Source: Phycisphaerae bacterium (GTDB lineage: Bacteria > Planctomycetota > Phycisphaerae > Phycisphaerales > SM1A02). Taken from it: a stretch of 64,000 nt of DNA. This document shows, piece by piece, positions 692 through 13,426 of the stretch; position 1 is the stretch's first letter, and every line of letters starts with the position of its first letter. The DNA is taken from the NCBI GenBank assembly GCA_016795065.1, contig JAEUIU010000002.1:1-64000 (forward strand), written 5' to 3'. Both the position numbers and the translations under genes were made by a program. The notes under the pieces are model-generated. The model did not search any database. It worked only from the letters and a program-made list of their open reading frames with translations, and had not been told where the DNA came from.

Positions 692-2014
692 TCAGCCGTC
701 ATGCGTCTCGCGGGCCTGGGGCCCGGGAATGTCCAAGGGGCTGCGGACCTCTTCCGCGGCTCGATCGCAAGCATGGAGGTAGCCGAGGGTTGTTCGCAGA
801 TCGGAATGTCCCAGAAGCTGTTGCAAGGTCCGGGGATCGGTGCCATGCCGCAGCGAATGCGTCGCGAAGGCATGCCGAAAGTCATGCGGTCTCACTTGTT
901 TGGGCATGTGCAATTGCCGACGGGCGGATGCGACCGCTTTCTGCACCACTGATTCGTGGAGGTGCCATCGCAGTCGTTCTCCGGTCTCGGGGTCGACGCA
1001 AGTCGAGCTCGCCGGGAAGACCCAGTGCCACGGCCACTCGGATGGGGCCGATGTGTACTTGCGAGCCAGCGCATACGGGACGGGAACGGTGGCCATACCT
1101 TGCGCGAGTCGCTGGTTGAACTCCCGACGAACCTCTCGCAAGTGTTCGGTGAGTTCGGGCACCAGCGCCTTTGGCAAAATGGTGGTCCGGTTCTTCTTCC
1201 CCTTCCCGTCGAAGACATAGATCTCACGACGATCCAGATCCATGTCCTTTACCCGCAGCGACAATGCCTCGCCGAGTCGAAGCCCGCTTCCATAGAGGAT
1301 CAGGCAAACCAGCCGTGGGCGCCCAGTGAGTTTGGCCAGCAATGCCTCCACCTCACGGCGAGAGAGGACGACCTGGATCCTCGCCGAGATCTTCGCCCGG
1401 GTGATGCCAGCGACCCTTTCGTATGGTTCGCCGAGAATGTCGCGATAGAGGAGAACGAGTGCCGCGCTGGCCTGGTTCTGTGTCGAGGGCGCCACTCGCT
1501 CGGAGATCGTGAGCGAATTGATGAAGTCAACGATCTCGCTGTTGCTGATGTCAATCGGATGCCGCCGTCCGCAATGGTGGATCAGCCGCCGCATCCAATA
1601 CACATACTGCTCAATTGTCCGGGGGCTATATCGTCTGGCCTGCATAAACGTCAAAACGTGGCGATAGAGCGTCGGCTCCCTCGTTCCGGGGATCAGTGGC
1701 AAGGGGCCGACCTGCCCAATCGGCGATGGCACCTCTGGGCCAGCCCTTGAATGGCCTTTCGCAAAGGTACGCTCCTGTTTGGCCTCTGGCTTCGTCGGAG
1801 ACTCACCGTGGGGAGTCTCGCGGACGGGATCGCGCGCGGTCGTCGGGCGACTGCCCAGAAGCGTTCCAGGGGCGAGATAGGCCGATTTCATGCCGTCACG
1901 GCGCGACGTCGGCCGGCCATCCCAAACGGGTGGATTGTCGAAGGTCGCGTCTTGCTCTCGTTGGCTCTGCCCTTCTGCGTTGGATTGCATCCGCTTCGGC
2001 GCCTCCCTGCACAT
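692..2014 (-). CDS. intI: Integron-type tyrosine recombinase (IntI family), apparently without cassettes
   Basis: A site-specific tyrosine recombinase that would join DNA at att-type sites. The core begins near residue 120 with a SAM-like N-terminal domain (YRHVLTFMQARRYSPRTIEQY). The catalytic domain contains GSGLRLGEALSL with the first Arg, RPHDFRHAFATH (His-x-x-Arg), LLGHSDLRTT and a Tyr in TTLGYLH. The insertion with LARKYTSAPSEWPWHWVFPAS, followed by RWHLHES, is the extra patch that separates IntI from XerC/D. At 440 residues it is about 100 longer than usual IntI. The extra N-terminus is low-complexity, and an ATG at 1891 is an alternative start. No attC-like repeats or divergent cassette genes are visible upstream (positions above 2014), so it looks like an orphan integrase. 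Confidence 0.85.
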   Translation of the reverse strand: MCREAPKRMQSNAEGQSQREQDATFDNPPVWDGRPTSRRDGMKSAYLAPGTLLGSRPTTARDPVRETPHGESPTKPEAKQERTFAKGHSRAGPEVPSPIGQVGPLPLIPGTREPTLYRHVLTFMQARRYSPRTIEQYVYWMRRLIHHCGRRHPIDISNSEIVDFINSLTISERVAPSTQNQASAALVLLYRDILGEPYERVAGITRAKISARIQVVLSRREVEALLAKLTGRPRLVCLILYGSGLRLGEALSLRVKDMDLDRREIYVFDGKGKKNRTTILPKALVPELTEHLREVRREFNQRLAQGMATVPVPYALARKYTSAPSEWPWHWVFPASSTCVDPETGERLRWHLHESVVQKAVASARRQLHMPKQVRPHDFRHAFATHSLRHGTDPRTLQQLLGHSDLRTTLGYLHACDRAAEEVRSPLDIPGPQARETHDG

Positions 2015-4189: not shown

Positions 4190-6001
4190 TCACCTTGCTG
4201 CCGGTGGGGAGGCTGGCGTGCCTGTCGCAGCGGCGTTCGCCGTCGGTGCAAGCGATACGGAGGCCGAGATGGGGGATGCCTTCTCGGCCACGTAGCTGAG
4301 ACCGACGGTGTCGCCGGCGTTGCCGCGGACGACGAATCGGAAGAACCGGGACGATCGCCCCGGGATCCCATCCTCGACCTCGAGCGTTGCCGGCCGGAAT
4401 CGTTGCTCGCTGACCGTCTTGGCGAAGCGATTGGAGGCAAACCCACCTAACACAACGCTCGCGCCGGTCAGGCGCAGGCGGTCAGGCTGTCCGATGCCCC
4501 GGGCGGCGGCACGCTCCGTTCGGGTCGGGATCAGCCGATCGTTGGCGATCTCGACATCCACCTGCCAAAGCCCGTTGCCCAAGTCCTTCACCTCCGTCGA
4601 GGCGAACCGGATCTTCGGCATCTGAGCGGCATGGAACATGGTGAAGGCGAAGTTGCGGTGGTACTCCTCCTCGGCCATGAAGGGCGGGGGAATGCGAGAC
4701 GAATACTTCGATGAACCTCCGACAAGGACCTTCCCGAGCGTTGGGTGATCCACTTCCTTGAGCGGAAGGGATGTCTGCCCGAAGAGCACGTGCTCGCGCC
4801 AGAGCCGTTCCTGCTCCTCGTTGGGCGACGCCCCGTTCTGCATGATGCGGTTCTCCGACCACATTTCGTTGGTGAAGGAGACGACACCTAACGATTCGGC
4901 CAACCAGTTGACGAAGCCGCCGTGCACCGTGTAGAGGTCGGACCAGATCACCATCTTGCGGTAGAAGGGGAGCATCTGTTCGCCGGAGGTGGCGATCGCG
5001 TCGTAGGTGCTTCGGTCGCGTCCGCCGTAGACGCCCTCACGTTCCTGGGCGCCCGGGCCGCGCAGGATCATGCCTCCGGCGTTGTGATAGCTCTGGCCCG
5101 CGGCGATGTTGGGATGCCGCATGATGAATGCCGCAACGCAGCGCGACTCGGGCAGGGAGAGCGGATAGTCGCCCGCGCCATCCTGCACGTGGTTGGGCTG
5201 CCAGTCGGCGGGCCAGTTGCGGTTCGGGTCGTATCCTCCGGGGCCGTCCTCGTTAACGCTCCCGTCGCCGTCGTTGTCAATTCCTTCGCTGCCGGCGAAG
5301 CTCCACTCGCCGCGGCGCACGGTGCCGTCGGGCATGATCGCCGGCGTGACCGGCTCCATGCGGTTGGGGTCCGTCTCGCTTCGCTTGTGGGAGCCATTCG
5401 GGTCAGGCCGCCACATCGTGGTGATCGCGCCGTCACCGTCGAGGTCCTCGGGGCCATCCTCATCCGCCGCGCCATCGCGATCGTTGTCGGTGGGCTTCTG
5501 GCCTCCGCGGCTCGAGCTGGACGTGTTGGCGTTGTCGAACCAGAATTGCCGGCCATCTGGGTTGATCGACGGGATGAGGTAGAAGGCGCTTTCGTCGACG
5601 AGTTTCGTGATGCGCTCGACCTGGCCATACCCCGACGCGAGGTACCACGCGCTGTAGAGAACGACCTCGCCGGCCTGGATTTCGTTACCGTGGATGTTGC
5701 CATCGATGTACATCGCCGGCTTGCCTGAATCGGGGCCGGTCTTCGGGTTGTTGATGATGATGGCGATGAGCGTTCGCCCTTGCACCGACTGCCCAAGTTC
5801 CTCGATGCGGACGAGATCGGGGTAAGCCTCGGCAAGGCGACGGCACTGGGCGACGAGGGCGTCGTAGTCGTAATAGCGATTGAACGCGATATCGACCTTG
5901 CTTGTGAGTTGCTGTTGGGCGTGGGCGCCTTGCGTGGCGGCAAGGAACGATCCGACGATTGCCGTGGTAGCGGCCAGGAGCGAACGGCGTGTTCGGTTCA
6001 T
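4190..6001 (-). CDS. Secreted M14 family zinc carboxypeptidase
   Basis: Residues 1-28 are a signal peptide with a twin-arginine-like start (NRTRRSLLAAT), so the enzyme should act outside the cytoplasm. The M14 zinc site is intact: His104 and Glu107 in GNIHGNEIQ and His306 in GQSYHNAGG. The catalytic Glu is Glu379 in SFTNEMW, and an Asn-Arg pair (PNRNWP) fits the substrate carboxylate site. Two Asp-rich inserts (DNDRDGAADEDG and DNDGDGSVNEDG) look like calcium-binding loops. A C-terminal beta-rich region follows the catalytic domain. The start overlaps the stop of the upstream, inactive-looking paralogue by ATGA, indicating translational coupling. It should trim C-terminal residues from peptides; the substrate is unknown. 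Confidence 0.9.
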   Translation of the reverse strand: MNRTRRSLLAATTAIVGSFLAATQGAHAQQQLTSKVDIAFNRYYDYDALVAQCRRLAEAYPDLVRIEELGQSVQGRTLIAIIINNPKTGPDSGKPAMYIDGNIHGNEIQAGEVVLYSAWYLASGYGQVERITKLVDESAFYLIPSINPDGRQFWFDNANTSSSSRGGQKPTDNDRDGAADEDGPEDLDGDGAITTMWRPDPNGSHKRSETDPNRMEPVTPAIMPDGTVRRGEWSFAGSEGIDNDGDGSVNEDGPGGYDPNRNWPADWQPNHVQDGAGDYPLSLPESRCVAAFIMRHPNIAAGQSYHNAGGMILRGPGAQEREGVYGGRDRSTYDAIATSGEQMLPFYRKMVIWSDLYTVHGGFVNWLAESLGVVSFTNEMWSENRIMQNGASPNEEQERLWREHVLFGQTSLPLKEVDHPTLGKVLVGGSSKYSSRIPPPFMAEEEYHRNFAFTMFHAAQMPKIRFASTEVKDLGNGLWQVDVEIANDRLIPTRTERAAARGIGQPDRLRLTGASVVLGGFASNRFAKTVSEQRFRPATLEVEDGIPGRSSRFFRFVVRGNAGDTVGLSYVAEKASPISASVSLAPTANAAATGTPASPPAAR

Positions 6002-8163
6002 GAGTTCTTTCCCCCGACGACGGCACCTTGCCGGATGCGATAGGTCGTAATCCCGTACTCACCGTTACCGACCGTGAACTCGATCGTCTCATCGTCAGCG
6101 GCACGGACGATCCACTCGAGGCTCACTCGGGCGCCCGGTGCGATCGATTCGAGCTTCCGGACGCGATCGCCGCTCACGATTCGTTCGACGTCACTGGAGA
6201 GCCGAGCGATGACCGGGGCTCGAGCTCGGGTCATGACGCCCGTCGTCGTCATCGTCGGCAGGCGGCCGGCGTTGGTGACCGAGCTCTCAATCCGATAGAG
6301 ACCGGGCCCGAGGGTGGTGACGGTTGGCTGGACGACCACCAGTGAGGGCAGTCGATCGATGAGTTCAAGCAGGAAGGCTGTCTGCTTCGCGGCAAGCGCA
6401 TCGAGCTCGCCCGCCGGCGGGTTGAGCCGGAAGAGCGGATGGAAGCCGCCGATCTCGACCACACCGAAGAGCGGATGGACGGCCTCGTGCCAAGGGATGA
6501 AGCCAACGCCATTGCGGACCCGGTCGCTGTAGGCGAGCCATTCGCCGCTCTCGGCATCGCTGGTTGCCGAGGCTTGTGTGGGAGCGGGCCCGCCTCGGGG
6601 CTGGAAGTTGCCGCCGCCACCACCTCCTCGACGACCGCGTCCACCGCCGCCTGCTCCTCCCGGGAAGCTGCCCTGTCGACCACCTCCGGGCGGTCCGCCG
6701 GCACCTGGCGCGCCTTGAGGGGCACCTTGAGCGCCGGCAGGGCCTCCCTGAGTCGCTTGGCCTGTGGGGACGGTCTGGAATCCTGCGGGATGGATGTCCT
6801 CATCGTGAGGCTCCGCGTTGGGATTCGCTTCGGGAGGATCGTGGAGCATCCCGAGGCTGACGTTGAGTTCGCTCCATCCGCGCAGGATGTCCGGAGGTGC
6901 GTCTGCAGGTGGCGGAGGTGATGGGGGCGTCTCCGCAGCCGGCTGGGGCGCAGGTGCGGCAGCATCGGTCGGCGCGGCTGGTACCTCGGGCTTGGGGAGG
7001 TCGGGTCGCCCCCAGATCGTTGAGGCGACGCTCAGCAGGCCGCGGTGATTTGCGAGCCAGAGCCAGAAGGCGCCCTCATGGTCCGCGGAACCGCTACGAG
7101 CCTGCCCTGTGGTGTCGCGGTAGAGCTTCCCGATGCCTTGATACAGGTCGATGTCGCCGGCGCCGTGCACCAGCGGAGTGCGGCCGGTGGCGTCGTTGTC
7201 TCGGCCGTCCGGGACACGCACGAGCGAATCGTGTCGCCCGAAAGTGATCGCGGCGACGATCTCGGGGTGGGCCACGACGAATTCGGCGAGGGCCTTCGAC
7301 TCGGGCTCCGAGAGCTGATGCGGCCCCGCGTCGGAAGCGAACTCGGGGTAGCGGTGTGGGAAGTTCCGGTTGAGGTCGACCTCGCCGCGGCCGTCTTCGG
7401 CGATGCGGCCATCGCCATCACCGTCATCGCCTTCGGAAAAAACGGCGTAGGTCGGTGGCTCGAAGGGCTTCGCCGCAACGCCGGTCTCGGGAGTCTTCAA
7501 CAGCCGGTTGTCGGCGCTGTCGCTCACCAGCGTCGCGATGTAGGGGGCTGGCGGGTTCTTGACCCGCATCTCGACGACGACGCCGTCTCCGTCCATGTCA
7601 CGTGGCCCGTCCTCATCGGCCGTGCCGTCGCGGTCGTCGTCGGTCGGTCGCAGCGTTCCGCGTTGGGCCGAAGGTCCCTTGAGCGTCGCCTCGAGGGCAT
7701 CGGGGTTGGCGCAGGGAACGATCCAGATGGTGACTTTCGTGAGAAGATCCGGTCGCCGGGCAGCGAGATCGGCACCTAACAGTTCGTTCGCAACGCGGAG
7801 GGCAACCTCGGCTCCGGCCAGGTGCAGGCCGTCGAGGCCGGCGGTGATGAGGATCGCCGGGCGGCCGGCCGCTTCACCGGAGGCAAGACGGATGGCGAGC
7901 AGTTCGCGCCCCTCGCCGGATGTGCCGATCGGCACGATCTGGGCATTCGGGCCGACGAGCGAACGCAGCGCCGTGAGCAGGGCGGCGTGGTCGCGATAGC
8001 CGTCGAGAATGCCGACATTCGCCGACGAAGTGGGGCCCGCGCAGGTCGCCGGCGCGGGAGCAAGCCCTGCGAGTGCGCATGGGACGGCCCCCAATGTCGT
8101 CATCGCGACAAGCGCCGGTCCGAGGGAGAAGGGGGTTCGAACGGCGCTGTGGGACTTGAACAT
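5998..8163 (-). CDS. M14-like carboxypeptidase paralogue with degenerate active site (pseudoenzyme)
   Basis: It aligns along its length with the downstream M14 enzyme and shares the Asp-rich inserts (DDDRDGTADEDG and GDGDGRIAEDG) and the LNRNFPHR segment. The zinc site is gone: HGNE is replaced by DGLH (His to Asp111, Glu to His114), the third His lies where TFGRHD now reads, and the catalytic Glu of FTNEMW is Thr in VASTIW. A Pro/Gly-rich linker (about residues 420-550, including long Gly runs) is inserted before a C-terminal beta domain. The N-terminus looks like a signal peptide. Loss of all key residues while the frame and operon coupling remain intact suggests a binding or regulatory role. 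This is an inference. Confidence 0.85.
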   Translation of the reverse strand: MFKSHSAVRTPFSLGPALVAMTTLGAVPCALAGLAPAPATCAGPTSSANVGILDGYRDHAALLTALRSLVGPNAQIVPIGTSGEGRELLAIRLASGEAAGRPAILITAGLDGLHLAGAEVALRVANELLGADLAARRPDLLTKVTIWIVPCANPDALEATLKGPSAQRGTLRPTDDDRDGTADEDGPRDMDGDGVVVEMRVKNPPAPYIATLVSDSADNRLLKTPETGVAAKPFEPPTYAVFSEGDDGDGDGRIAEDGRGEVDLNRNFPHRYPEFASDAGPHQLSEPESKALAEFVVAHPEIVAAITFGRHDSLVRVPDGRDNDATGRTPLVHGAGDIDLYQGIGKLYRDTTGQARSGSADHEGAFWLWLANHRGLLSVASTIWGRPDLPKPEVPAAPTDAAAPAPQPAAETPPSPPPPADAPPDILRGWSELNVSLGMLHDPPEANPNAEPHDEDIHPAGFQTVPTGQATQGGPAGAQGAPQGAPGAGGPPGGGRQGSFPGGAGGGGRGRRGGGGGGNFQPRGGPAPTQASATSDAESGEWLAYSDRVRNGVGFIPWHEAVHPLFGVVEIGGFHPLFRLNPPAGELDALAAKQTAFLLELIDRLPSLVVVQPTVTTLGPGLYRIESSVTNAGRLPTMTTTGVMTRARAPVIARLSSDVERIVSGDRVRKLESIAPGARVSLEWIVRAADDETIEFTVGNGEYGITTYRIRQGAVVGGKNS

Positions 8164-8169
8164 GAACGG

Positions 8170-9006
8170 TCACATCTCCAGCTTGAGTCGGGCATCGTCC
8201 ATCGCGTACAGGCCATAGAGCCAGCCGTCGGCGAGGAGCGGGGCGACGTGCAGGATTCCCTCCACGCCGCCAAAAAGAAGTCCGTGCTTGCGGTTCACCG
8301 GAATGGACGAGGCGAGATTCACCTCGATCGCGTCATAGGCCGAGGGGGGAACGCCGATGCAGCATCCATCCCATTGGTTGAAGGTCAGCAGGCACTGCTG
8401 CGATTGCTGGACGATCAGCGGGAAGATGATGTAGCCATCGACTCGGACCCGCTTGCCGTCAAGGAAGGCGACCCGCTGCGGAATGTCGCGCAGTGCGCTT
8501 CGCGGCTGGTACGTGTCCATCGCGCTGACGAGCAGCTCCCATGGAACGATGTATGGGTTTCGCTCTGTCCCGTCACCGGTGATGAGCCATTTGCCGTCCG
8601 CGAGAATCGATCCGTCTGTCTTGCGGAGGAGGCGACCCGGGGCGACTTTCGCGTTCGGAAGAGTGACGTCGAGGCCGTCGGTCATGGCCACGCCCTCAGG
8701 TTCGGTGACCGCGGCCTTGGCGTTGGCTTCGCCGGCGAGCGGCTTCGAGGCCTCGTCCGCTCTCGGCGTCATGAGGTCCTTCACCAAGGCGTCGGCCTTC
8801 GCGTTGTTGGCCGGAGGCGTCGATGGCGGCGGGGAGGGCGCGGGCTCCGGCCTTGCCGGAACCGGCCCGGAACTCGTCGCCTCGTTGATGAGTGCCGCAT
8901 CCATGGCCGCGCCTTTGGCGTCATCGCGGGCTGCCCGAGGGGGTTGGAAGGCCACGATGATCGCGGTCGCGATGACGGCAGCGAGGATGGCCCAGAACCA
9001 CTTCAT
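8170..9006 (-). CDS. DUF3299 domain protein, membrane-anchored
   Basis: One N-terminal membrane segment (WFWAILAAVIATAIIVAF) is followed by a long Pro/Ala-rich linker to about residue 155. A C-terminal domain then contains GKRVRVDGYIIFP and QQCLLTFNQWDGCCIGVPPS, which I recognise as the DUF3299 pattern. DUF3299 proteins often sit beside FtsX/MacB-type ABC transporters, and here the gene overlaps the permease gene by 4 bp. The biochemical role is unknown. It may be a periplasmic partner of the transporter. Confidence 0.75.
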   Translation of the reverse strand: MKWFWAILAAVIATAIIVAFQPPRAARDDAKGAAMDAALINEATSSGPVPARPEPAPSPPPSTPPANNAKADALVKDLMTPRADEASKPLAGEANAKAAVTEPEGVAMTDGLDVTLPNAKVAPGRLLRKTDGSILADGKWLITGDGTERNPYIVPWELLVSAMDTYQPRSALRDIPQRVAFLDGKRVRVDGYIIFPLIVQQSQQCLLTFNQWDGCCIGVPPSAYDAIEVNLASSIPVNRKHGLLFGGVEGILHVAPLLADGWLYGLYAMDDARLKLEM

Positions 9007-10289
9007 GCGGAAGGCCGAAGAGTGTCGCCGACCGGCGTTCGATACGCCAGCAGGGCCGGGAGAATTCCTGCCACCGACGCCAGGACCACCGTGGCCGCGA
9101 CGACGATGATGCCCTGTCGCGGGTCGACGCCCAGCCCAAGCACCAGGCCGACCTCGTGCTTGAGGTAGGCCGCGGCGACCGCCGTGCCGATGGCGCTCAG
9201 GATCGCGCCGCTCGTCGCGCCGAGGACGCCGATGAGGGCCGACTCGGTCAGGACAAGACCGAAGATCCGGCCCCGGCTACAGCCCAAGACGCGGAAGATT
9301 GCAATCTGGCGGCGCCGTTCGTACATCGAGTTGTAGAGGGCCACCAGGATCGAGATCGCGCTCCCGACGAGGATGACGATCGCCATCGCCACGAAGAGAA
9401 TGTCGACGCGCGAGACGATCGCGAGGAGCTTCTGGATCTCGTAGGCGGGATTGGCGACCGTAATCGTCGGATCGCGGCGAAGGCGGTCGAACTCAGCCTG
9501 CATGGCGGTCGAGACATCGGAGCCGGGGCGCGTCGGCAGGCGAAGGAGGAGCCCGGTGACCTTCCGGTCGTCGTCGATCAGGTCTGCGGATGTCAGCGGC
9601 GGACCGTGCTCATGCCCGCCGCCGGCTTCGCTGCGCTCGCGTTCCTTGCGGTCGTGGGCGTGCAGAATCCAGCTTGACTCGAGCGAGCAGAAGATCGCCC
9701 GGTCGTGGGCCGAGCCGGTGGGCGCAAGAATGCCGACGACGTTGAACTCGTATTCGGTGTGGACGTGGCCGTGCTCATCGCCGGCCCCGTGCGTGAAGTG
9801 GAGCTTCGCGTTCAATCGAAGGCCCGTTTCGGCGGCGACGGCCGAGCCGAACACCGCTTCGAAGGTGGTGTCGAAGGCCCGCCCCTCCCGGAACTCCCAC
9901 GGTTCTCCGGGCACGGGCTGAAAGTCGCGTAGGAATGCCGGCGTGGTGGCGAGCGTGGGGAAGCCGCGATAGGAGTCACCCTGTTGCACGGGAATCACCC
10001 AAGTCCAAGGAAAGCTCTTGCTGAGCTCGCCGAGCTTCGCCTGGCCGATCGGACGGGCGGGGGCTCCGGAGTAGAAGAAGGCGTTCAGGACCGAGACGAC
10101 CGGACCGGCATCGGCGCTGACCAGAAGATGGGCGTTGCCGCTTCCGCGGATGAACGCGCTCGCCCCGGCGGCCTTGAGCGAAAGGAGCGTCAGGAGGAGA
10201 GCCACCGCGATGGCGACGGTGACGACCGTGACGACCGTTGAGAAGAGCCGTGCGCGGAGCGAGCGGAAAACGATGGTGAAGTCGTTCAT
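9003..10289 (-). CDS. FtsX/MacB-type ABC transporter permease
   Basis: Integral membrane subunit of an ABC transporter. From the ATG at 10289 the protein begins MNDFTIVFRSLRARLFSTV, an amphipathic stretch plus TM1. A large periplasmic domain with His-rich segments (HTHGAGDEHGHVHTEYE and GGGHEHG) follows, then three C-terminal TM helices (near ILFVAMAIVILVGSAISILV, LIGVLGATSGAILSAIG and IIVVAATVVLASVAGILPA). The motif RRRQIAIFRVLGCSR is typical of FtsX/LolE proteins. This start overlaps the ATPase stop by ATGA; an open frame extends 46 codons further upstream but has poor composition. The His clusters may bind metal. A role in lipoprotein or peptide export is possible but unproven. Confidence 0.88.
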   Translation of the reverse strand: MNDFTIVFRSLRARLFSTVVTVVTVAIAVALLLTLLSLKAAGASAFIRGSGNAHLLVSADAGPVVSVLNAFFYSGAPARPIGQAKLGELSKSFPWTWVIPVQQGDSYRGFPTLATTPAFLRDFQPVPGEPWEFREGRAFDTTFEAVFGSAVAAETGLRLNAKLHFTHGAGDEHGHVHTEYEFNVVGILAPTGSAHDRAIFCSLESSWILHAHDRKERERSEAGGGHEHGPPLTSADLIDDDRKVTGLLLRLPTRPGSDVSTAMQAEFDRLRRDPTITVANPAYEIQKLLAIVSRVDILFVAMAIVILVGSAISILVALYNSMYERRRQIAIFRVLGCSRGRIFGLVLTESALIGVLGATSGAILSAIGTAVAAAYLKHEVGLVLGLGVDPRQGIIVVAATVVLASVAGILPALLAYRTPVGDTLRPSA

Positions 10290-11071
10290 CGCGAGCCTCC
10301 GGTCGGGGCAGGTTCGGCGACGCTTCGCACCGCGAGGATGCTCGCGAGCTCGACGTGATGATCGAAGAGGGGAATGAGCGAGGGATCGTGACTCACGCAG
10401 ACCAGCGACGCGCCTTCCTCGCGACACGTCGAGCGAATGAGTTCGATCGACGTGCGGGCGTTCTTCGGGTCGAGACTCGCCGTCGGCTCGTCAGCGAGCA
10501 CGAGCGGCGGCTTGCAGGCGAGGGCGCGGGCCACGGCGACGCGCTGCTGCTGCCCGACGCTCAGCGTTTCGACCGGGGCATCGTGGCGCTCGATACCGAG
10601 GTGATCGAGCAACTCCTTGGCCCGCGCCGCATGACCACGCGGTGCGACCTCCTTGCGCGGTTCGGCGAAGAGGAGGGCCAGCAGGACGTTCTCCAGCGCC
10701 GAGAAGCCGAGAGCGAGATGGAAGGTCTGGAAGATCATCCCGATCGAACGGCCCCGAAAGCGATCGCGGGCGGCCCCTCGAAGTTGGTGGATGGCGGTGC
10801 CGGCGACGCGGATGGTGCCGGCAGACGGCTCGATGAGACCGGCGATGAGTTGCAGAAGCGTGCTCTTGCCGGTCCCGCTGCCGCCGGTCAGGAGCAACTC
10901 GCTGCCTGCGGGCACAGCGAAGGACTCGATGGCGAGTTCGAAGGACTCGGCCCCGCGCTGATCAAGCGCCGGCGCTGCTTCACCGCCGAAGCGGAATCGC
11001 AATCCCTGAATGTCCAGGGCGGCCAAGACGAGGGGAGAGGCAGGGGTGGGTTTCGTCATGGGAGCGAACAC
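10286..11071 (-). CDS. ABC transporter ATP-binding protein, MacB/LolD-like
   Basis: Cytoplasmic ATPase partner of the following permease. Walker A is GGSGTGKST at residues 63-71, the signature LSVGQ at 170-174, Walker B LVLADEPT with Glu195, and the switch His in SHD at 227-229. At 261 residues it fits the family. The first start is GTG at 11071, with an ATG four codons later at 11059. It is the first gene of the six-gene minus-strand operon. The operon promoter should lie in the intergenic region beyond 11071. Confidence 0.9.
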   Translation of the reverse strand: MFAPMTKPTPASPLVLAALDIQGLRFRFGGEAAPALDQRGAESFELAIESFAVPAGSELLLTGGSGTGKSTLLQLIAGLIEPSAGTIRVAGTAIHQLRGAARDRFRGRSIGMIFQTFHLALGFSALENVLLALLFAEPRKEVAPRGHAARAKELLDHLGIERHDAPVETLSVGQQQRVAVARALACKPPLVLADEPTASLDPKNARTSIELIRSTCREEGASLVCVSHDPSLIPLFDHHVELASILAVRSVAEPAPTGGSR

Positions 11072-11440
11072 ATGTGCTGCTCGCGAGCGCGCAGACTCGG
11101 AGCCGGCTCACGGACGCCGGACTATACAGGTGGCCTTGCTCTTCCTTTCCGATGCGAGATGGTTCCTGACTCGTGATGGACAGGGGGCATCTGCCCTATT
11201 CGTGGCGGTGCACCTCCACAGTTCTGAAGCAGCAGCACAACGATCCAATCGCCTGACTCACACAGCCGTCACAGTCGGGCGGCGATGTCATGTCTGCCAC
11301 GACTCTGGTTGCTTCCGGTGCATTCGTTGGATGCCCGCGTCGATCCCCGGTTCGCGTCGGGCTCCGGAATCGCGTGGTGACGAGAGGCCGACGGTTGAGT
11401 TGCCGCGTGCGATGGCTCGTCGGTGGCTCCGAGCACCTCT
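11072..11440. other. Divergent intergenic region between the ABC operon and the chemoreceptor gene
   Basis: This spacer must hold the promoters of both the minus-strand operon and the plus-strand chemoreceptor gene. On the minus strand a TATAGT hexamer lies at about 11118-11123 and is a possible -10 for the operon, but no good -35 stands 17 bp away. No regulatory palindrome or RNA element was recognised. Confidence 0.4.
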
Positions 11441-13426
11441 ATGCAGTTCAAGACCAAGCTTGGTTTGGCGTTCCTTGCGGCTGGCATCATTCCCTCCGCC
11501 GTCGTCGGTGCCGTCGCTTACCGGGCGACCACGTCGATTTCGGAGGGCATCGGCGCTCGCTTTGAGCAAAGTAGCCACGACCTGCTCGATAAGATCGATC
11601 GCTTCCTCTTCGAGCGATACGGCGATGTGCAGGCGTTCGCGGCGAATCGGACCGCCCTCGATCGGGCGAGTTGGTACGACAGCGAGAAGACCACACCGAT
11701 TCACGAGGCCATGAACACCTATGCCTCGCTGTACGGGATCTACGACCTGCTCGTGATGGTGGACCCGGACGGAAAGGTCGTCGCCTGCAACCAGCAAACG
11801 CCTGCGGGGAAGCCGGTTCAGTCCGAAATCGTGATGGGGCATTCGTTCCGCGACGAAGGCTGGTTCAAGGACGCCATGGCGGGTGCGTTTCTCTCGACGC
11901 CCTCGCTGACCGGTTCGGTGGTGCACGATCCGGTGCGCGACGCCTTCCTGGCCTCCGTGACCGCGTCGGACGGCCGTTGCATGCGCTTCGCCGCACCGGT
12001 GAAGGACGCCGATGGGACGGTGGTCGGCGTCTGGTGCAACTGGATGCGGTGGGACGCGGTGGAGGCGCTCGTCGACGCGACCTATCAGGGCTTCGCCGCC
12101 CAAGGGCTCGACAGCACCTCGATCACGCTCCTCAATCGCGATGGACTGATCCTGACCGACTGCGATCCAAGCGCCGTCGCGGCGGGATCCATTCCCACGA
12201 GCCCGTTCGCGTTCAAGACCAAGAGCCTCACCGAAGGCGGCTGGCAACCGGCCGTTGACGCCGTTGCGGGGCGTTCGGGCAGCGGCGAGTGGATTCCGCC
12301 GTCGAAGGCTGGTGCTCATCATGGCGGCTTCGCCAGTGAGGCGGGAGCCTGTGGCTACGCCGGACTTGGCTGGTCCGCCATTGTGCAGGCCGATGGGACG
12401 CAAACGATGTCGACCATTGCGGGGATTCGTACGCAGTTGGCCGGGACGTTGGGTGGTGGGGCGGTCCTGGTCCTCTGCGGGGCGTTGGTCCTCACCATGC
12501 GATTCGTCACGCCGATCCGCCGCATGACCGCCCGGATGCGGGACGTGGCGGAGGGCGAGGCCGATCTGACCAAGCGCGTTCACGATGGCCGCAAGGACGA
12601 ACTGGGCATGCTCGCACACTGGTTTGACGCGTTCGTGGAGCGGGTCGAGTCGACGATTGCCGAAGTTCGGAATGGTGCGATGCAGATCGACGCCGGCTCG
12701 TCGCTCGTCTCGTCGTCCACCCAGGCCGTCGCCGCCGACGCCACCGTGCAAGCGGCCAAGCTGGACACAATCACGAAGAAGCTCGCGACGTTGACCGCCG
12801 CGACGGAAGCAACCAACGCGACACTCCAGCGGGCGAGCGCGTTGGGCGAGGTCGCCCATGTCGCCAGCGAGAGCGGGCGAAGCGAAATGCAGCGGATGAG
12901 CGAAGCAATGAAGGCGATCCTGACCGGCTCGACCGAGGTGTCGCGGATCATCCGGGTCATCGACGACATCGCGTTCCAGACCAACCTGTTGGCCCTCAAC
13001 GCTGCGGTCGAGGCCGCCCGAGCGGGTGAGTCGGGGAAGGGCTTCGCGGTTGTGGCCGACGAGGTTCGGTCGCTCGCCCAACGCTCGGCGGAGGCGGCAC
13101 GCTCGACCACAACCATGATCGAATCAAGCGTCGAGCGAGCGAAGCGCGGCGCCGAACTCGCCACTCGGGTCGAGTCATCGCTGGGCGAGATCGGCGAAGC
13201 GGCGACCTCGGTCAAGGAACTCCTGACCGACATCGCCATGGCGAGCGCCCAGGAGGCAGAAGGCATCGCCGAGATCAGCCGGACTGTCAGTTCGCTCGAC
13301 GAGGTCACCAGCCGCACCGCAAGCCAAAGCGAGGAGATGGCGGCGGCTGCAGAAGAGACGGCTTCGCAAGCCGCGGCACTGCGGGAGCTCTCGGGCAGCT
13401 ACCGGCTGAGCGAACGTCTCGCATGA
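11441..13426 (+). CDS. Methyl-accepting chemotaxis protein
   Basis: Transmembrane chemoreceptor that signals to CheA/CheW. From the ATG at 11441 it has a TM helix at about residues 6-26 ([19 protein letters not shown]), a periplasmic double-Cache-like sensor, a second TM near residue 340 ([16 protein letters not shown]), then a HAMP domain ([20 protein letters not shown]). A long coiled-coil signalling domain follows, with the conserved tip [20 protein letters not shown] and [24 protein letters not shown] six codons upstream (11423) is an alternative start. No chemotaxis genes lie next to it. A hairpin terminator follows. The ligand cannot be predicted. Confidence 0.93.

Follow-up and report, generated by a model that had tools for sequence, protein, structure and literature searches.

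A pair of adjacent genes for M14 carboxypeptidases, one active and the other without its zinc site, is the conserved unit of the locus described here, and the six-gene order in which the pair lies is a local arrangement. Far from being a decaying duplicate, the inactive copy is an old gene kept by purifying selection, and the two products probably form an exported heterodimer or fused complex made of one catalytic and one pseudo-M14 subunit. The window (the whole stretch that was analysed, 64,000 nucleotides of a Phycisphaerae contig) carries the block on its minus strand. From upstream to downstream, the block consists of an ABC ATPase of the LolD/MacB type in the ZrgC/PA4064 position (10286..11071), an FtsX/MacB-type permease that resembles ZrgB/PA4065 and has a His-rich periplasmic region (9003..10286; the listed reading frame opens at 10427, with the start probably near 10286), a ZrgE/PA4066-like DUF3299 protein with an N-terminal membrane anchor (8170..9006), the pseudo-M14 or 'dead' copy (5998..8163), the active or 'live' carboxypeptidase (4190..6001) and, as the sixth and last gene, an HI0933/BaiN-like flavoprotein (TIGR00275; 2906..4183). 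The ATPase, FtsX and DUF3299 genes that a first-pass annotation had placed upstream of the pair are indeed present, with the DUF3299 match falling below the Pfam cut-off (18.1 vs 22 bits) and the gene order being that of ZrgE operons. The same is true of the 4-bp overlap it had reported between the two M14 reading frames, which run from 8163 to 5998 and from 6001 to 4190, both on the minus strand, with the stop-start overlap at 5998..6001 pointing to translational coupling. Past the flavoprotein lie a dockerin-type protein (2178-2681) and a tyrosine recombinase (Phage_integrase, with an N-terminal SAM-like domain; 692-2014, minus strand), and a methyl-accepting chemotaxis protein (11423-13426, plus strand) is divergent from the operon.

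Both proteins match the Pfam family Peptidase_M14 (148 bits for live and 72.4 bits for dead, cut-off 21.6), and they align with each other much as had been claimed, with 366 residues at 31% identity (E 9e-32) and a further segment at the C-terminus. The live protein (603 aa, with a signal peptide) has all of H104, E107, R165, N260, R261, H306, Y357 and E379, among them the four catalytic residues named in the first-pass annotation (H104, E107, H306 and E379). These features extend to its orthologs. The M14 zinc ligands H69-x-x-E72 and H196 and the general base E270 are found in all 108 deduplicated pairs where they can be read, and the equivalents of H69, E72, H196, E270, N144 and R145 are complete in 103 of the 108, the other 5 being only gapped or N-masked. 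Residue V364 lies at the position of Ile255 in carboxypeptidase A, and Y357 at that of Tyr248, as judged from the alignment to carboxypeptidase T and general knowledge of the family; V364 at this place suggests that the live enzyme may prefer hydrophobic C-terminal residues.

The dead copy (721 aa) has a signal peptide, as had been claimed, and the live copy has one too. It also retains the M14 fold and the Asp-rich inserts reported for it, which are of the calcium-type DxDxDG form and are conserved in both copies. Each Asp checked in the dead inserts is kept in 104-108 of the 108 pairs, and calcium binding by these inserts may be inferred from the motif. What the dead copy has lost is the active site. 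The reported replacements D111, H114 and T382 are correct, but the 'non-His' third zinc ligand depends on the alignment, because the position is occupied by G309 if the alignment is left ungapped and by H311 if it is gapped. Among the 108 deduplicated pairs, the window and every readable ortholog never have E270 and never have H69 and E72 together, and an Asp stands at the H69 position in 96/108. As an enzyme, the dead copy lacks the zinc ligands and general base that M14 catalysis requires, in the window and in its readable orthologs alike.

It is highly improbable that the dead copy is instead catalytic through a rebuilt metal site, composed in the window of D111, H114 and H311. A D-x-x-H motif in place of H-x-x-E, together with a nearby His, occurs in the window and in 39/108 dead copies, and E-x-x-H is found in the dead copies of most pairs from other phyla, but the general base is absent from every one of them. 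Moreover, H114 and H311 are present together in 41/108, against 42.6 if the two were independent (63 x 73 / 108). This reading is weak because the two His co-occur just as independence predicts, and an alternative metal site was on these grounds rejected as a conserved unit.

A predicted structure indicates what has been retained. In the structural alignment that the first-pass annotation had proposed, the AlphaFold2 model of the dead copy (core pLDDT ~95) has the M14 fold, with carboxypeptidases B and T as its best PDB matches (Z 30.8, about 270-290 residues aligned). The long Gly/Pro linker described earlier is real as a stretch, a disordered loop of residues 385-541 (6541..7011, minus strand) with pLDDT <50 for most of its length, but it sits inside the dead M14 domain and does not join two domains. 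In the AlphaFold2 model it follows the strand that bears the pseudo-E270 position, and it can be called intradomain because the structural match to carboxypeptidases extends past it (model range about 50-608). In dead orthologs this loop spans 25-203 residues, in live ones 18-22, and a long Gly/Pro stretch is therefore no constant feature of the protein.

The history of the two genes can be read from their sequences. A tree of 40 pairs separates the dead and live proteins into two groups, each on one side of a branch with a support of 100. Between close pairs, dN/dS is 0.09-0.26 for dead and 0.05-0.20 for live, so the dead copy is constrained, if somewhat less than its partner. Conservation of the dead copy among relatives, on which the first-pass annotation had made its reading depend, was assessed in a sample of 101 related genomes, taking E below 1e-100 as a strong live match; dead accompanies live in 59 of the 59 relatives with such a match, these counts coming largely from metagenome-assembled genomes, many of them incomplete. 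Two candidates for a live gene without a dead one (G012 and G038) were rejected, since C-terminal dead fragments are present at contig ends; G012 has two further genes between dead and live. A dead gene that seemed to lack its partner (L162) was likewise rejected, as its genome, G380, carries the live gene (L220) on a different contig. With dead and live on separate contigs, linkage has been lost in G380, and neither gene has. Pairs are also present in assemblies named Gemmatimonadota, Acidobacteria, Aminicenantes and Bacteroidales, names that rest on binning. When 294 genomes from the phylum were searched by alignment, 80 gave matches at E <= 1e-20, where a single listed match may be either dead or live, the two being indistinguishable in such a case.

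The two genes are also closely tied in their arrangement. At all 121 loci that have both, they are on the same strand with dead upstream of live, and the dead stop overlaps a start codon by 4 bp in 85/108 deduplicated loci. In one genome (G016, L086:8504-12211), dead and live form a single in-frame reading frame of 1235 aa from which the second signal peptide has gone. A congener (G052, L212:943-3333) has the same fusion across its readable part, again with the second signal peptide absent; the fusion was seen in this one genus only, in two species. Together, co-retention and fusion suggest that the dead twin serves as a functional subunit. The evolutionary distances of dead and live are correlated with r 0.91, the highest among ten pairwise comparisons within the six-gene set, a value that is not specific to contact because joint inheritance of linked genes also raises distance correlation.

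Coupled translation and the dead-first order would equally suit a dedicated folding partner or inhibitor. The dead copy could then be a chaperone, an inhibitor or a pro-domain-like regulator that binds live only during folding or export. Pro-domains are common among M14 enzymes, and it is in line with this explanation that the live protein has no apparent N-terminal pro-domain while many of its relatives in the family do. We nevertheless consider it unlikely, given that both parts stay on a single exported chain in the genus of G016, and that the dead copy retains an entire M14 fold and a C-terminal domain, which is more than an inhibitor needs.

Less likely still is that the dead copy is an independent binder of C-terminal peptides or of another ligand, a decoy or solute-binding protein that shares only substrate and regulation with live. 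Its pocket is retained as a fold in the predicted model, the window's copy has N-R at the carboxylate position, and eukaryotic pseudo-M14 proteins work through binding (PMC11266112). The residues that would hold a carboxylate vary among the orthologs, however: N144 is replaced by D in 53/108, R145 is a residue other than R in 40/108, and R127 is mostly lost. Peptide binding by the dead copy is doubtful for this reason, and strict co-retention and fusion point to a partner rather than to an independent binder.

In the heterodimer or fused complex that we favor, the homologous active and inactive proteins, with coupled and co-retained genes, would be subunits of one carboxypeptidase exported to the periplasm or the extracellular space. 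The downstream gene would supply the catalytic zinc subunit, and the upstream gene a pseudo-M14 subunit that has kept its fold and calcium-type Asp-rich inserts and lost the zinc site. This dead subunit may be a structural, docking or allosteric partner, and coupled translation, along with fusion in one genus, would yield equimolar subunits. In one lineage of Planctomycetota, the pair lies downstream of a metal ABC module of the Zrg/PA4063-66 type, which would be a later neighbor, most likely owing to a shared demand or regulation under metal limitation, with the enzyme either needing the metal itself or acting on peptides that bind metal. The physical complex, which the fusion in two species supports, the role of dead, the substrate and the metal link are all points that we infer. 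An AlphaFold2 model of the fused chain from 11 paired rows was poor (pTM 0.46), two wider alignments having been left out as MAFFT placed dead rows on the live half. A more ambitious version of the proposal is tentative and somewhat short of an even chance: that the pair is an obligate bacterial M14 active/pseudo heterodimer, old enough to span several phyla, in which dead shapes substrate entry or regulates live, an M14 counterpart of the M16B and MPP enzymes, which one lineage has wired into metal homeostasis for the trimming of metal-binding peptides.

The ABC transporter is a module separate from the M14 pair. The first-pass annotation had joined the two into a single peptide-binding and trimming system, a proposal that is not supported, as the transporter is a Zrg/PA4063-66-type module, a kind known from zinc/cobalt homeostasis, and can be separated from the pair in both directions. 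Its assignment follows from the order of ATPase, FtsX permease and DUF3299 protein (the last with a match below the cut-off) and from a permease that is homologous end to end to a DUF2796-linked permease of Phaeobacter, with 26% identity over 418 residues (E 1e-43). In Phaeobacter, that permease stands in a row comprising a Fur-family regulator, DUF2796 (ZrgA), ATPase, permease and DUF3299, and a Pseudomonas plasmid has the same DUF2796-ATPase-permease-DUF3299 order. A Zrg-type module is under Zur control in Vibrio (PMC9817125), and the PA4063-66 module of P. aeruginosa has been credited with exporting a pyochelin-cobalt complex (PMC11481552). Orthologs of the window's permease (L213:1649-3070, L124, L122 and L150) have periplasmic His/Asp repeats with up to 22 His per 40 residues, which are highly variable between relatives.

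The triad of ABC genes is found in places that lack the pair, and the pair in places that lack the triad. Among the 101 relatives, 35 have both, 11 the triad only, 24 the pair only and 31 neither, which is above the co-occurrence expected (odds ratio 4.1, p 0.001, by a test that ignores the kinship of the genomes). The module is missing near most pairs, and the six-gene set that was to be sought across Planctomycetota is present in part of the sample and confined to that part. Among the neighbors of the pair, the ABC triad and the flavoprotein alone are widely recurrent; recG, an epimerase, MFS and other genes near it in some loci are local synteny. In G006 and G048 (L110 and L114), the flavoprotein directly follows the triad with no M14 pair between them, and this looks like either a six-gene block that has lost the pair or an arrangement that predates the pair's insertion. 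Upstream of the operon and its orthologs, no Zur box was found near the proteobacterial consensus, which may not be the motif of this phylum, and a search for ZrgA (DUF2796) in the window's genome gave no match, with control genomes also yielding none. As no Zur-like box was found and the ABC module is missing near most pairs, the metal link is weak, a lead and not a result. Care must be taken here, since a gene beside an ABC transporter need not belong to that transporter.

With the pair in 59/59 genomes and a natural fusion at hand, this is a simple system for asking what service a dead peptidase does its active twin, and because both proteins are exported and moderately sized, the question is directly testable. 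The literature searched, from which most subscription journals were absent, yielded no account of an active/inactive M14 pair in bacteria, and a 2024 review of pseudo-metallopeptidases covers animal and fungal pseudo-M14 proteins and names no bacterial case (PMC11266112). Several known systems can be compared with the pair. The live protein shares its fold and all catalytic and carboxylate-binding residues with carboxypeptidases T and A/B, but its two Asp-rich inserts, its extended C-terminus and its dead partner set it apart from them. Gene order links the block to the Zrg and PA4063-PA4066 modules (PMC9817125, PMC11481552), through the succession of ATPase, FtsX/MacB permease and DUF3299; here, however, the M14 pair and the flavoprotein lie downstream, and neither ZrgA/DUF2796 nor a recognizable Zur box was found. 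By family, the nearest relatives are the eukaryotic pseudo-M14 proteins, which include domain III of CPD, AEBP1/ACLP, CPXM1, CPXM2 and yeast Ecm14 (PMC11266112). Like the dead copy, they have the M14 fold and have lost ligands or the general base or changed carboxylate-binding residues, and in CPD active and dead M14 domains even share one chain. They are animal or fungal proteins, however. The dead copy is bacterial, has a gene of its own and is constantly accompanied by an active partner, and it differs from them further in its Asp-rich inserts and in the loop within its M14 domain. By its proposed working mode, the nearest known system is the M16B pair, bacterial members of which, such as SPH2681/SPH2682, TTHA1264/TTHA1265 and AlbF/AlbE, are heterodimeric (PMC12731061). 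These pairs and the mitochondrial MPP beta/alpha likewise combine a catalytic subunit with a homologous one that is free of a zinc site, encoded by adjacent or separate genes. Their fold and motif are unrelated (M16, HxxEH, endopeptidase), whereas the proteins described here have the M14 fold, are both exported, and would form a heterodimer by analogy.
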